From positions 1 through 64,000 of the forward strand of contig JAJPJE010000041.1 of assembly GCA_021324365.1 (NCBI GenBank): DNA of 64,000 bases, written 5' to 3'. The stretch's first letter is position 1; every line of letters begins with the position of its first letter. Below, one piece after another: positions 5,330 through 55,394 of this stretch. The notes under the pieces are model-generated. The model saw only the letters and a list, made by a program, of their open reading frames with translations, did not search any database and was not told the DNA's origin. Source of the DNA: Terriglobia bacterium (GTDB taxonomy: Bacteria; Acidobacteriota; Terriglobia; Terriglobales; Acidobacteriaceae). The position numbers and the translations under genes are program-made.

Positions 5330-5507
5330 CTACCACGGGGAGCACAGCACGTCAGAGCAAACTGAGACTATCACGAGCGCACCATTTTCGATGCAATGTA
5401 GCTGGTTATGAACTTGGTGCGCAGAATTGTTGAAGTAATCAATGCAGGGCTTACTCAGAAGTGCAAGAGATTACACAAGTTGTCAGTCGCGCGCGAGTTT
5501 ATCTGAG

Positions 5508-6215
5508 TCAAAAATGATGGCGAAGCTCACTGAAATTTTCGATCTGAAGCAGTCGGCTGCTGGTCGGAGTTGCGACTTGCTCGTGCTCAAGCACCCAAGT
5601 GTTATCGTGAGGAATAAATACCGCGTTCAAACCAGCCGCCAGCGCAGAATTAATGTCGGATTTCGGGGAATTGCCGATCATCCAGCTTTGGTCAACAATG
5701 AGCGCGTACTTATCGGAGATGGCGCGATACGCGGACTCATCCTTCTCACTGACAATCTCGATTGCTGCGAAGTAATCCTTTAATCCCGATCGTTCAATCT
5801 TGCCGGTCTGCTCAGCAACGTGTCCCTTGGTCATTAGGATGAGGTGATGGCGGCTTGCCAGATACTGTAGCGTTTCGGGAACGCCGGGAATAATCTCCAC
5901 CGGATGGCCGGCGATCTGGTGAGCGAAACTCAGAACTTTCTCGTGCAGCTCGGCAGTAACCGGTTCGACCGATACTCTTTCGAACGTCTGCGCGAGCGCG
6001 TGCGCGAAACTGTGCAGGCCATAGCCATGGGTAATGATCGCCTCGCGTTCTACGTCGTTGAGGATCTCGCGAACCTGCTCGCTGCTATACGTTTCGTGAT
6101 TCAGGAATGAAATGAACTGCGCAATCGCCCGCTCAAAGTAGATGTTATTCTCCCAGAGCGTGTCGTCGGCATCGATGAGCAGGTTCTGGGAGCCCGTGTA
6201 AGCTTGCGTACCCAT
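5508..6215 (-). CDS. HAD-superfamily hydrolase
   Basis: A protein of about 235 residues. The DxD nucleophile motif is LLIDADDTLWE, about 11 residues after the ATG at 6215. Motif II is MTKG, and the acidic motif is IGNSPKSDINSALAAG, with a late FIPHDNTW. The layout resembles the YjjG/phosphoglycolate-phosphatase-like group. The reading frame stays open upstream to 6338, but that extension is low in family similarity and would overlap the divergent gene starting at 6289, so the ATG at 6215 is preferred. Substrate unknown. Confidence 0.85.
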   Translation of the reverse strand: MGTQAYTGSQNLLIDADDTLWENNIYFERAIAQFISFLNHETYSSEQVREILNDVEREAIITHGYGLHSFAHALAQTFERVSVEPVTAELHEKVLSFAHQIAGHPVEIIPGVPETLQYLASRHHLILMTKGHVAEQTGKIERSGLKDYFAAIEIVSEKDESAYRAISDKYALIVDQSWMIGNSPKSDINSALAAGLNAVFIPHDNTWVLEHEQVATPTSSRLLQIENFSELRHHF

Positions 6216-22959: not shown

Positions 22960-23044
22960 TGGTGCGGAAGGGGGGATTTGAACCCCCACGCCTTTCGGCG
23001 CCACCCCCTCAAGATGGTGTGTCTGCCAGTTCCACCACTTCCGC
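22960..23044 (-). tRNA. tRNA-Leu(GAG)
   Basis: A class II tRNA, 85 nt including an encoded CCA. The acceptor stem is GCGGAAG/CTTCCGC with discriminator A. The anticodon stem CCATC/GGTGG encloses TTGAGGG, giving anticodon GAG (reads CUC/CUU). The variable arm is long (GGCGCCGAAAGGCGT-like), as expected for Leu. The T-arm is GGGGG-TTCAAAT-CCCCC. It sits between tpiA and secG. Confidence 0.97.
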
Positions 23045-43660: not shown

Positions 43661-43796
43661 ATGCGGCAGATCTTCTTCTCGATAGATGCGAAATAATAGC
43701 CGGACGTAAATTTTCGGGCCAATCTTGACGTGCCTCTTACCTGAGAGCAAAATAGCGCCGCTCAGTTTCCAGAGCGCTTTTCCCCAAGGAGGCAAT

Positions 43797-46700
43797 GTGA
43801 GTTCTACCCGGCGTGAGTTCCTGAAAATCTCTACAGTCGGCGGAATTGCCACCACAGTTCTCGGTTTCGACGTGACTTCTGCTCAAGCCCAGGCACGCGA
43901 ACTGAAGATAGCCAGAACCACCGAGACTCGATCGACCTGCCCCTATTGCTCCGTCAGTTGCGGCGTCATTATCCATACTCTCGGTGACAAAGCCAAGAAC
44001 GTCACTGCCCAGGTGGTACACGTGGAAGGCGATCCCGACCACCCGATCAACCGCGGAACCCTCTGTCCCAAAGGGGCGGCCCTGTACCAGGACATCCTGA
44101 ACGAGCGGCGATTGCTGAAACCGCAGGTGCGCCGCCCCGGCTCGGATCACTGGGAGGACATCAGCTGGGACCAGGCGATCGAAGAAATCGCTCAAAAAAC
44201 CAAGAAAGCTCGCGACGATGCATTCATTGAAAGAGATGCCAACGGTTTCACCGTGAATCGTTGCGAGAACATCGGCTTCACCGGCGGCTGCACCGACACC
44301 AATGAGTTCAACTACCTCGTTGTGAAGACGATGCGGAGCCTGGGAGTAGTCCATTTAGAAAACCAGGCCAGGGTTTGACACGGCCCCACGGTCTCAAGTT
44401 TGGGACCAACGTTTGGGCGCGGCGCCATGACCAATGGCTGGATCGACATCAAGAACACCGACATGATGTTGATCATGGGCGGAAATCCCGCCGAGAATCA
44501 CCCCTGCGGCTTCAAGTGGGCCATCGAGGCAAAACGAAACCGCAACGCAAAGATGATCGTAATCGACCCGCGGTTTACGCGAACTGCGGCTGTCAGCGAT
44601 CTCTTCCTGCAGATTCGTACCGGAACCGATATTGCTCTGCTGGGTGCGTTCATCAACTACACCCTACAGAACAATCGTGTGAATCACGAGTACCTCGTCA
44701 ATTACACCAACGCGTCATTCATCATCAAGGAAGGTTTCAAGCTTCCGGAAGATGGATTGTATTCAGGATGGGACGCCGATAAGCACACCTACGATAAGAG
44801 CACATGGAATTACGAGTCCGGTGGTCTGACGAAAGTCGATGCCCCGTCGCATCCGGAAGCCACAGCCCACGGAATCGCCGCCGCCGGAGCGCCACCGCCA
44901 TCCCTGCCGGAGAATGTCGCGTACGATCCTACGCTGCAACATCCCCGCTGCGTGTATCAGCTGCTGAAACAGCATTATTCGCGCTACACGCCAGAAACGG
45001 TTGAGAAGATTACCGGCATTCCCAAGGATCAGATCATCAAAGCTGCCGACATGTTTACCTCGATTCGTAAGGACGGATCGACGAAGCAGGTTGCAACCAT
45101 CATCTATGCCGTTGGTTGGACGCAGCACAGCTCCGGCACGCAAACCATTCGCGGCGCTGCCATGCTGCAACTGTTACTCGGAAATGTGGGTCGCGCCGGC
45201 GGTGGAGTCAATGCGTTGCGCGGGCACTCCAATATTCAAGGCGCAACGGATATGGCAGGCATCTTCGACATCCTGCCGGGTTATTTGAAAGTGCCGGTCC
45301 CAAAGGATGTCGATTTTAAAACGTATCTCACACGCATCACGCCGAAACCTGCGAAACCTGGCGAGTGGCAATCGTTCAACTACTGGTCCAACAGCCCGAG
45401 GTTCGCCGTCTCACTTCTGAAATCGTTTTATGGGAGTGCTGCGACCAAAGAAAACGACTTCGCTTTTCACTACCTGCCGAAGGTGGACAAGAACTACTCC
45501 TGGGCTGAACTTTGGGATCGCATGTACGCGGGCAAGGTTCAAGGACTGTTCGCATTCGGCATGAACGGAGTCGCAATCGGGCCGAATTCGCAGAAGAATA
45601 TCGATGCGCTGAAGAGGGCCGATTTCCTCGTCGTCTGCGAAATCTATCCCGATGAGACCAGCGAATTCTGGCGCGCACCGGGAATCACACCGGAGGAAAT
45701 GAAGAAGATCAACACGACGGTCTATCGCCTTCCCGGCGCTGGTTTTGCAGAAAAGGACGGCACCTTTGTTAATTCGGCGCGGTGGCTGCAGTGGAAGTAT
45801 GCGGCTGTCCCGCCTCCGGGAGAGGCGAAGCTCGATCAGGAAATCCTGGCACGGATTTTTCTGAAGATCCGCGACCTCTATAAGAAGGAGGGTGGCAAGT
45901 TCCCGGACCCGATCCTAAATGCGTCGTGGAGCTACACCAACCCGTATAACCCTTCGTTGACCGAAGTTGCCAAAGAGATTAACGGCAAGGCACTGGAAGA
46001 CGTAACCGATCCTGCCACACAGACGACCATCAAGGCTGGTCAGCAACTGCCGAGCTTCGCTTTCCTGCGCGATGATGGTTCGACAACCAGCGGAAACTGG
46101 CTTTATTGCGGTTCGTGGACCGAAGCAGGAGCGATGATCCAGCGGCGCGGAACGGAAGATCCCTCAGGGTTGGGTATCTATCAGAACTGGGGATGGTCGT
46201 GGCCTGTAAATCGTCGCGTTCTCTACAATCGCGCCTCTTGCGACACCAATGGCAAGCCTTGGGACGCCTCTCGAGCCCAGGTCTGGTGGAACGAATCCGC
46301 GAAGAAGTGGGTGGGCAACGATGTCCCCGACTTCAAGCCCGACTCGGCGCCTTCCGATCACATGGGACCCTTCATCATGAATCCCGAGGGCGTGGGCCGC
46401 ATCTTCGTGCCGCTCGGAATGGTCGCTGACGGACCGTTCCCCGAGCATTACGAAGTGTTCGAGAGCCCGGCGCAGAACATCCTGCACCCGCAACAGCCGA
46501 ACAATCCTGTTGCTATCCGCCTGAAGTCGGCAGCCGACAAGATTGGCACGACCGCTGAAGGGTACAACATCGTATGCACCACCTATCGGCTGACGGAGAT
46601 GTATCACTACTGGACGAAGAACAACCCCATGAACGTCCAGTTACAGCCGGAACCGTTCGTGGAGATTCCAGCCGAGCTCGCCGACGAGCTGAAAATCAGC

Positions 46701-46964
46701 GGCGGCGAAAAGGTAAAGGTGACCAGCGCACGCAGCTACTACATTGCGAAGGCAATGGTTACACGCCGCATCCGGCCAATGATGATCGAGGGAAAGAAGA
46801 CCTACCAGATCGGTATTCCCATTCACTGGGGTTATCGCGGCATTGCTGAGGACGAGGGCCGCACCGCTAAAACCCTGGCAAACCAGTTATCGCCCGCTGT
46901 GATCGACCCCAATGCGTTCACACCGGAATTCAAGGGCTTCCTCGTGAAGCTGGAGAAGGCATAG
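43797..46964 (+). CDS. fdnG: formate dehydrogenase alpha subunit, selenocysteine-containing
   Basis: A gene of 1055 residues read through an in-frame TGA. It starts at GTG 43797 with AGGAGG 6 bp upstream. The N-terminus is a Tat signal (VSSTRREFLKISTVGG). A [4Fe-4S] cluster motif follows: CPYCSVSCGVIIH, with the fourth Cys in GTLCPKGAAL. Codon 194 is TGA in the context LENQARV-U-HGPTVSSLGPTFGRGAMTN, the expected position of the Mo/W-bisMGD Sec ligand. The remainder is the MGD-binding oxidoreductase body. It oxidises formate in the periplasm and passes electrons to FdnH and FdnI. Without the Sec reading, the gene would be called as two fragments. Confidence 0.95.
44376..44407 (+). promoter_or_regulatory. 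Sec TGA codon and bSECIS hairpin of fdnG
   Basis: The recoded TGA is at 44376-44378. Downstream, GGTCTCA (44390-44396) and TGGGACC (44401-44407) form a 7-bp stem with one G-T pair and an AGTT loop. Counting the T of TGA as 1, the loop G and T are at 23 and 24. From memory these are the positions of the SelB-contact G and U in the E. coli fdhF bSECIS. The stem lies in the open reading frame, as bacterial elements do. Confidence 0.75.
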
Positions 46965-53912: not shown

Positions 53913-54509
53913 CTAGATGGCGCTGGCACTTAGCGCAGCAATCGCCGCGGCCATGGCCATCTTGTGATCCTGGCTCCAGGGCGGCCCGACCTTTCGTCTA
54001 ATCTCGCCGAAGTGAGCGTCGAGATTGGCGACTCCCAAAGCTTTGCTGGCCTGAGATCCTACTTCTCGCGGGTCGAACCAGTGCACCGCCCAGCCACGCG
54101 CTCCGACCGCTGCGGCGAGCGCCTTGCGATACATCACCCAGTCGGCAACATTGCTGGCACGGTAGTTGGTGATCCGCTCAGCTATAGTCGGCGGAAGCTC
54201 GGGACACTGGCGCAGTGCGATGCCGAGAGTGCGTCCGGGAAGATCCCTGGCGACTGCGTCGAGAACAACCTTCGCGTTACGCTCGGCTGAGGCGCGGACG
54301 CGGTCCACGAGCGCGACAGCATCGTCGATCGGGAGCCGCTGCCCTTCGCTGTGGTGCGGGATTTTCGGAAGTCTGTCATCGACGAGTTCCACGCGGCGGC
54401 GGTCAAGCAGTGTGCCGTCGGCATCGGCAGTGACAAACACAGCCCAACCTCCGTGATCCGAGACACCGATGACGGCCCGTGAGAGTGGGTGATTTGGTGA
54501 TGGAGTCAT
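53913..54509 (-). CDS. conserved hypothetical protein
   Basis: A 198-residue protein without signal or membrane segments. The N-terminal AVIGVSDHGGWAVFVTADADG, followed by LLDRRRVELVDDRLPKIPHH, resembles an RNase H-like or nucleotide-binding beginning. The C-terminal half is helical and Arg/Ala-rich. It matches a widespread hypothetical family whose function is not known to me. It lies downstream of the selenoprotein on the same strand, separated by repeats. Confidence 0.65.
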   Translation of the reverse strand: MTPSPNHPLSRAVIGVSDHGGWAVFVTADADGTLLDRRRVELVDDRLPKIPHHSEGQRLPIDDAVALVDRVRASAERNAKVVLDAVARDLPGRTLGIALRQCPELPPTIAERITNYRASNVADWVMYRKALAAAVGARGWAVHWFDPREVGSQASKALGVANLDAHFGEIRRKVGPPWSQDHKMAMAAAIAALSASAI

Positions 54510-54659: not shown

Positions 54660-55394
54660 TCAATTTGTGCTTTGCAAGTTAGTCAGGGCCGCTTTCAGCT
54701 CGTCGGGCTTGAATCCAAACGGGCCAGGCTTGCTCTTGTACACGATCTTTCCAGAGGTATTGATCAGATACAGCCGATCCGGCCAGCCTGTATAAGCGTG
54801 CTCAGTTTTATTCGAAAAATCGTCAAGGAGAGCAGGGAACTTGATCCCCAGATTTCTCACGCAACTCCCGGCAACCGCCGATCTCTCCTCCTCGTTTTTC
54901 GGGCTCGCAAACACGACCTTGTCTTTGATATTGCTCTGCATCTGCCACACGTCGCTGGGATGTGCTTCGAGGATGTAGACCGCGTAAAAAGCGATTCGAT
55001 CTTTGTACTGATCGTAGAGCTTGTTGAGGGCGGGAACCTCCCGCCGGAAAGGCGGTCAGGTATAGCTGCCGAAAACCAGTACAACCGGTTGTTTTCCGCG
55101 AAAAGAGCTCAGTTCCACGTGCGTCGATTTATCGAGGGTCGGCAGATTGAAGTCGGGCGCCATATCTCCGGTATGGAGATCGCCGGCACGGGCGCGCGTC
55201 CAAAGGGTTTCAAATGGCAAAGCGATAAACGCGATTACCGGTGTCCGCGACATGATGCGGCCAAATCGCTCCGGCGTCTGGTGCATTGCGTAATCGAAGA
55301 AGACCACTCCGGCTAGCCACAGGCAGCCCAGCACAATCGCGGACTTCCAGGCAATTTCGCGCACGCGTTTCCAATTAACGTCCAACTTTTTCAT
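54660..55394 (-). CDS. deiodinase-like membrane-anchored selenoprotein
   Basis: Two frames joined through an in-frame TGA give a 244-residue protein. Residues about 13-37 form a membrane helix (EIAWKSAIVLGCLWLAGVVFF), placing the redox domain on one face of the membrane. The active-site segment is VVLVFGSYT-U113-PPFRREVPAL, followed by FYAVYILEAHPSDVWQ. FGSxTUPPF and xYxxEAHPSD are the signatures of the iodothyronine deiodinase family. The domain ends with a thioredoxin-fold GWPDRLYLINTSGKIVY. Cys would be used in most bacterial homologues; here the codon is TGA. Reaction in bacteria is not established: thiol-dependent peroxide or dehalogenation chemistry is inferred from the fold. Confidence 0.88.
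55029..55058 (-). promoter_or_regulatory. Sec TGA codon and bSECIS hairpin of the deiodinase-like gene
   Basis: The TGA is at 55058-55056. On the coding strand GGCGGGA and TCCCGCC (55045-55039 and 55035-55029) pair perfectly around a GGT loop. Counting the T of TGA as 1, the loop G-G-T is at 21-23, essentially the same distance as in fdnG (23-24). It meets the usual description of a bacterial SECIS: short stem, small loop with G near the start, 16-37 nt from the codon. Confidence 0.7.

Follow-up and report, generated by a model that had tools for sequence, protein, structure and literature searches.

The window that we analysed is a 64,000-nucleotide stretch of DNA from a Terriglobia bacterium. 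On its minus strand it carries two reading frames that are separated by a single TGA (55058-55056) and that together read as one protein of 244 residues. This had been proposed in an initial annotation of the sequence, and both the coordinates and the frame were re-derived here. Under translation table 11 the frame stops at 55056, and when the TGA is rendered as U the joined product has 244 amino acids, with one internal TGA only. FGSYT-U-PPFRRE around the TGA and VYILEAHPSDVW further on are both present as they had been described. Since the gene's own terminator is also a TGA (54662-54660), this codon is not simply a sense codon in the gene. Upstream lies an opposite-strand frame with a PilZ domain, and downstream a same-strand frame (53913-54509) in which no Pfam or NCBIfam family match was found. 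The features of the locus are collected in Table 1. A scan of the window with Rfam at the gathering score returned one tRNA only; ARAGORN placed a tRNA-Leu (gag) at 22960-23044 (-), which is absent from the Rfam list.

Table 1. Features of the deiodinase-like locus and of related loci (positions are those of the window unless a locus is named).
Feature	Position	Strand	Remarks
Deiodinase-like selenoprotein gene, complete	54660..55394	-	ATG 55394, terminator TGA 54662-54660, 244 residues
N-terminal hydrophobic helix, predicted membrane anchor	55284..55340	-	residues 19-37
In-frame TGA, read as selenocysteine	55056..55058	-	codon 113, active-site residue
SECIS-type hairpin	55029..55045	-	+11 to +27 after the TGA; 7-bp stem, GGCGGGA/UCCCGCC
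Apical loop of the hairpin	55038-55036	-	GGU
Y140-I-L-E143-A-H145	54960..54977	-	corresponds to DIO2 proton-relay residues Y157, E160, H162
Cys178, proposed resolving residue	54861..54863	-	sole catalytic-domain Cys besides the Sec position
Formate dehydrogenase alpha-type gene, probably encoding a further selenoprotein	43725..46964	+	
CPY-TGA AhpD-like gene	L113, about 5370-5930		also in L116, L123, L125, L132, L139, L141, L148, L150

The formate dehydrogenase gene has its in-frame TGA at 44376-44378 (+), within ENQARV-U-HGPTV, which we take to be the Sec site motif of this enzyme. Molybdopterin domains are found on both sides of the TGA, and genes for Fe-S, cytochrome b and FdhE proteins follow downstream. 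The 45 nucleotides from this TGA fold with -16.1 kcal/mol (z -1.30), which is not significant.

The joined protein gave one match to PF00837, over residues 72-238 and thus across the TGA, with 103.3 bits against a curated cut-off of 27 (E 1.6e-29), so that the family assignment made from the sequence letters is borne out by a profile search. The NCBIfam model NF038285 (deiodinase family protein, 347 positions) matches residues 75-238 at profile positions 178-341 with 200.8 bits, which is below its cut-off of 250, and the N-terminal half of the model is unmatched by the window protein. The AhpC-TSA and Redoxin profiles also match, and the ResA model does so with E 6.6e-12 and 45.7 bits, far under its cut-off of 170 bits. 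In a sequence search of the PDB the first places were taken by mouse DIO3 (4tr3, 4.4e-20) and DIO2 (9h48, 2.7e-18), aligned through the TGA codon. In the alignment with these two mouse cores the active-site residue of the animal deiodinases is seen at the TGA column, as had been claimed. An AlphaFold2 model built from a 15-row alignment had a mean pLDDT of 82.8 and a pTM of 0.79, with residues 144-147 below 50; its top Foldseek matches were DIO2 (3.4e-11) and DIO3 (2.5e-10), followed by thiol-disulfide oxidoreductases (ResA, DsbE-like). We use the word deiodinase as a label for ancestry and fold, not for reaction.

The N-terminal membrane helix noticed at first reading is seen both as the hydrophobic stretch at residues 19-37 and as a helix of residues 8-37 in the AlphaFold2 model. 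Among relatives with the TGA codon (Sec rows), such a stretch precedes the domain in 96 of the 101 that are long enough to judge, and in 79 Sec rows there are more basic residues on its N side. From these two features together the catalytic domain is predicted to lie outside the cytoplasm, on the periplasmic side of the membrane.

Among 61 genomes, namely the window's own and 60 relatives, 17 have a long homologue with exactly one internal stop; this stop is always a TGA and always lies at the active-site codon, a pattern that is beyond chance. One more match, in G036, begins at residue 118 and runs into the contig end. In named genomes the best 80 of 237 loci all have TGA at this codon (80/80), and because these are the best 80, the statement that all have TGA is valid for close relatives only. 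Such a locus is present in, among others, Acidicapsa dinghuensis 4GSKX (L116), Occallatibacter savannae AB23 (L141), Edaphobacter lichenicola X5P2 (L144) and Acidobacteria bacterium AB60 (L113). A sample of the phylum comprising 396 genomes contained 33 with a match at 1e-15 or better, of which 24 have a TGA-bearing match and nine only stop-free matches. The 24 include G338, whose match carries two TGAs; weak non-TGA matches in G437, G148, G193 and G262 were left out of closer inspection. The frame of the homologue L062 stops short and contains two TGAs within the match; this may be a frameshifted or decaying copy.

For closer comparison, rows had to pass a motif filter, which required FG followed by S/T/A, one residue of any kind, T/S and either a stop or Cys, together with EAHP or Y-EAH. 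The Cys counts, BLAST comparisons, pairing, stem and folding tests of the SECIS hairpin, tree and hydrophobic-stretch count all use these rows. Because of the filter, the conservation of S110, T112, E143 and H145 in these rows is partly built in, and so is their choice between TGA and Cys. The filter gave 125 rows, which became 104 Sec and 10 Cys rows after 11 were dropped (identical proteins, N, short flank); distinct stretches among the Sec rows number 78 of 36 nt and 96 of 39 nt. Fifteen loci were lost at the filter, and the six inspected (L063, L064 and L066-L069) proved to be Sec-type relatives. Of these, L066-L069 form a group at greater distance, marked by FGAIT-U-(P/A)PYRG and by EPHP in place of EAHP. 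The Cys relatives with FGSxTCP belong to the same phylum (L018-L022, and L168 in the window's own genome) and to the same superfamily; they share the EAHP motif and have Cys at the Sec position.

Codon conservation behind the TGA was compared in 13 close rows, one of them the window's. Codons +4 to +7 hardly vary there, with a pairwise codon identity of 0.85-1.0, compared with means of 0.39 over the stretch from -25 to -6 and 0.44-0.53 from codon +12 onwards; the 3' arm codons +8 and +9 do not share this constraint (0.49 and 0.47). With the pairing held in a fixed register across the 78 distinct sequences of the filtered Sec rows, those out of register included, 85.5% of the cells are paired, 29 cells are compensatory with changes on both sides, and 6 of the 7 pairs show a both-sided change in at least one sequence. 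In 500 shuffles the observed values for paired cells, both-sided cells, types of pair and covariation score were never reached; 49 of the 500 reached the observed count of pairs that change on both sides. When the pairing is slid by +1 column there are also 29 both-sided cells, and the covariation is 0.224 versus 0.238, with only 54.6% of the cells paired. Without a fixed register, a stem of at least 6 bp under a GG/GU loop is found in 74 of the 96 distinct Sec sequences (22 have a shorter stem), where a random draw of synonymous codons expects 7.1%; among the Cys relatives it is found in 0 of 10. Against a synonymous null, the folding energy of the Sec sequences has a mean z of -1.71, with 48 of 96 below the 5% level, and that of the Cys relatives a mean of +0.46. 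In the window, two other hairpins fold slightly better within the 42 nt from the TGA (-13.9 kcal/mol, z -0.95). The ribosome covers the first bases behind the TGA, and once the initial 10 nt are omitted, the minimum fold is the SECIS stem (-13.3 kcal/mol, z -1.91). The comparative data support the view that the hairpin 11-27 nt downstream would direct the decoding of UGA as selenocysteine.

The absence of selA, selB, selC or selD had been named as something that would speak against this decoding, and all four are present in the genome: selA, selB, selD and a tRNA-Sec with the anticodon TCA were found, the sel genes on contigs other than that of the deiodinase-like gene. In the phylum sample SelA is present in 21 of the 24 TGA-bearing genomes versus 252 of the 396 overall; SelA is widespread in this sample, and its co-occurrence with the TGA is therefore mild evidence. 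Two SelA-negative TGA carriers, G367 and G393, have SelB, and in G196, whose assembly is 91% complete in 650 contigs and holds a TGA homologue, neither a SelA nor a SelB match was found. A separate search of TGA-bearing genomes from the set of 61 detected SelA in 14 of 14. The SelD gene of the window's genome (L041 1477-2550) has a TGA near its N-terminus (KAAG-U-ASK), and SelD may thus itself be a selenoprotein. In another genome of the class, a redoxin-like frame (L030, about 1252-1956, +) has FDFTGG-TGA in the region of the active site and is possibly a further Sec redoxin.

The active-site motif is U-P-P-F, and position +3 is Phe in 103 of the 104 Sec rows; the remaining row (L074, UxxC) has Cys there. 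A classical UxxC thioredoxin-type centre was considered and rejected because of this Phe. The proton relay of DIO2 consists of S127, T129, Y157, E160, H162 and H182 (PMC11592359), and five of the six are kept in the window protein, as S110, T112, Y140, E143 and H145. These five are invariant in 15 of 15 rows of the unfiltered alignment, which is without L013 (Ns) and L017. The sixth, H182, aligns with Pro165, and this position is Pro in 98 of the 104 Sec rows.

Inspection of the cysteines suggests how an oxidised Sec might be dealt with. No Cys lies within five residues of Sec in 100 of the 104 distinct Sec proteins; the remaining four have one near it, three at -2 and one at +3. Between 45 residues before Sec and the C-terminus there is exactly one other Cys in 99 of the 104 and there are two in five. 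Of the 104, 93 have Cys at residue 178, five at 161 and three at 111, and in three it lies elsewhere. Among the six Sec-type relatives that the filter had missed, five have one other Cys and L066 has none in the counted stretch, so that a resolving Cys is not universal. From this distribution we infer that one thiol may have been kept to resolve the oxidised Sec and that its place would have moved several times.

The neighbourhood of the gene was compared in the best 80 of the 237 named loci. In 12 of these 80 the flank contains sel genes, a count to be read with the limit that 70 have at least 3 kb upstream and that loci with a short flank cannot show sel genes. In 11 of the 80 (L107, L108, L113, L116, L123, L125, L132, L139, L141, L148, L150) selB is upstream on the same strand, and in seven of these 11 selD, selA and selB all precede the gene in that order; in E. 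lichenicola X5P2 (L144) selD, selA and selB are on the opposite strand. Between selB and the gene, nine of the 11 selB loci contain a second TGA-bearing frame, AhpD-like with the motif CPY-U. The L113 CPY-U protein matches TIGR01926 (peroxidase-related; 1.9e-28) and PF02627 (4.1e-15); in these nine loci the CPY-U gene is apparently served by the sel cluster as a second client. In 7 of the 61 genomes there are relatives of the L113 protein that carry one TGA and match with E better than 1e-70. The window's own genome gave no match to the L113-type protein at 1e-15; it has a different AhpD-like frame, with CHY-TGA, beside selB (L032 17-547), for which the best NCBIfam model is NF053654 (YciW-related (seleno)protein), under the cut-off. 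In G032 the deiodinase-like gene has an AhpD-like gene at a distance of about 6 kb, and no sel genes were found near it. By eye, no common theme was seen among the recurrent neighbours that are not sel genes. A plasmid search returned 13 records, all with less than 60% identity, and among the records listed the annotated ones carry ResA, TlpA, redoxin or CcdA names.

It was of interest to compare the window protein with the animal enzymes residue by residue. With DIO1-3 (PDB 4tr3, 9h48) it has in common the thioredoxin fold, the Sec column, the S/T/Y/E/H residues and the membrane anchor, and the EAHPSDxW stretch of DIO2 aligns with it without a gap. The identity is 33.7% to DIO3 and 31.4% to DIO2. 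Unlike in the animal deiodinases, the SECIS element sits in the coding region. The cysteines also differ. The distal Cys of the animal enzymes (DIO1 C194, DIO2 C209, DIO3 C239) is Phe186 here, and the four commonest residues of that column, F, I, M and L, make up 96 of the 104 Sec rows; the proximal Cys of DIO1 and DIO3 is Tyr111. DIO1 recycles its Sec via the proximal Cys124, and the role of its distal Cys has also been called elusive (PMC9141512). In BLAST the best of the Sec U-P-P-F proteins scored 103 bits with DIO2 versus 57.8 for the best Cys relative, and with DIO3 102 versus 70.5 bits. The tree agrees weakly: DIO2 and DIO3 stand next to some of the Sec U-P-P-F proteins (84/99, unstarred, on a long branch), and nine Cys rows form a starred separate group with the UxxC Sec protein L074 (98/95). 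An AU test did not reject a grouping of the deiodinases with the Cys relatives (p 0.139), and for this reason descent from the Sec U-P-P-F proteins is only suggested.

As a whole, these results make it probable, in our judgement, that the gene encodes a membrane-anchored periplasmic selenoprotein of the deiodinase branch, with Sec113 inserted under the direction of the hairpin and resolved by Cys178. In the mechanism that we propose, the single N-terminal helix would hold the catalytic domain on the periplasmic side, as predicted, and the selenolate of Sec113 would sit at the N end of the first helix of the thioredoxin fold, beside S110, T112, Y140, E143 and H145. There it would take an electrophilic group from a substrate, which may be the oxygen of a peroxide or, as happens in the animal deiodinases, a halogen. 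The oxidised Sec would then be resolved by the single distal Cys178, giving a selenenylsulfide, and this might be reduced by a periplasmic thiol donor of the TlpA/ResA type. As to the substrate, our leading guess, by judgement and at a little less than even confidence, is a peroxide or hydroperoxide; we make it because of the AhpC-TSA and Redoxin matches and the AhpD-like CxxU gene in nine loci, and for no other reason. A disulfide or other thiol-type substrate we judge less probable, and a halogenated aromatic less probable again.

The last of these substrates corresponds to a true reductive dehalogenase, which would use the deiodinase fold and Sec chemistry to remove iodine or bromine from phenolic compounds. 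Such an enzyme would account for Sec at the same column, the gap-free EAHPSDxW stretch, the invariance of the five relay residues, the first places of DIO2 and DIO3 among the fold matches and their higher scores with the Sec U-P-P-F proteins than with the Cys proteins. However, the relay His182 is replaced by Pro165 and the distal Cys by Phe186, nothing halogen-related was seen by eye among the recurrent neighbour genes, and such organisms are not expected to contain thyroid hormones (PMC1088965); we hold this reading to be rather unlikely.

Thiol-disulfide oxidoreductases of the TlpA/ResA kind use a CxxC (or UxxC) active site, and the window protein might be a reductase of this kind that employs Sec for disulfide exchange in the envelope. 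That ResA and DsbE-like proteins come next after the deiodinases in the fold search, and that the ResA model matches, albeit at a score far below its cut-off, are in keeping with such a role, but the Phe at +3 stands where a CxxC enzyme would have its second Cys, and we give this reading the same low credence as the dehalogenase.

A decayed gene or sequencing error with TGA as a real stop, for which the table 11 frame end and the early-ending L062 could be cited, and a variant code that reassigns TGA to another residue, which could by itself give an in-frame TGA, are both rejected as extremely improbable: the former is opposed by TGA at the same codon in 17 genomes and 80 of 80 named loci, by protein conservation on both sides of it and by the compensatory changes in the hairpin, the latter by the gene's own TGA terminator, by the presence of tRNA-Sec, SelA, SelB and SelD and by Sec at this position in the homologous animal enzymes. 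The Cys of the 10 non-TGA rows is no argument against reassignment, because the filter admitted only a stop or Cys.

The claim that the gene is not decayed has thus held up, and close relatives show TGA, in place of the TGC or TGT that a sequencing error would have hidden; among the matches looked at, no homologue was seen to end at this codon. When relatives are aligned at position 113, as had been suggested, TGA appears in the 17 genomes and in all of the best 80 named loci, and sequence comparison supports the view that this is a deiodinase-family selenoprotein with Sec at the position it has in animals.

Bacterial deiodinase-like selenoproteins as a kind are not new and have been in print since 2005, when Sec and Cys forms in marine bacteria were reported and a redox function was thought possible (PMC1088965). 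The bacterial family is listed under PF00837 in PMC2398784, PMC9312934 and PMC13188914; the motif is given as UxxC in the latter two, and none accompanies the listing in PMC2398784. The window protein has in common with the known bacterial family PF00837, an active-site Sec, a bacterial SECIS element behind the UGA and Cys relatives. It differs from the UxxC of the reviews in having U-P-P-F and a partner Cys 65 residues downstream, a comparison that leaves aside the sequences of the first marine members. Less expected are the U-P-P-F motif, the lack of a Cys near Sec and the presence of exactly one other Cys. Three known selenoprotein genes have been counted in Occallatibacter riparius (PMC12013277), and three selenoprotein families are listed for Acidobacteria (PMC1794560). 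Among the literature matches listed, whose scope excludes supplements and most subscription papers, we recognised none that describes this protein from Acidobacteriota, the partner Cys in it or its linkage to sel genes.

A broader reading, which we offer tentatively and consider doubtful as a whole, is that of a distinct Acidobacteriota selenoenzyme with a mobile Cys (178, 161, 111), encoded in an operon with sel and AhpD-like genes and standing in the ancestry of the animal deiodinases. If this were true, a mobile partner Cys, rarely elsewhere than at these three places, would replace the fixed CxxC or proximal Cys; some lineages would co-transcribe the gene with selD-selA-selB and a CxxU gene as a self-sufficient operon for selenium-dependent detoxification; and the animal deiodinases would descend from a U-P-P-F Sec lineage and not from Cys proteins.

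Standard gene calling splits the gene at the TGA, and such proteins are for that reason easily lost from annotation. Its linkage to sel genes suggests this protein as one of the chief reasons for which some lineages retain selenocysteine. The locus gives the thyroid-hormone deiodinases a bacterial counterpart that is well supported and that also occurs in named strains, so that the role of a bacterial "deiodinase" and the chemistry from which the animal enzymes arose are now testable.
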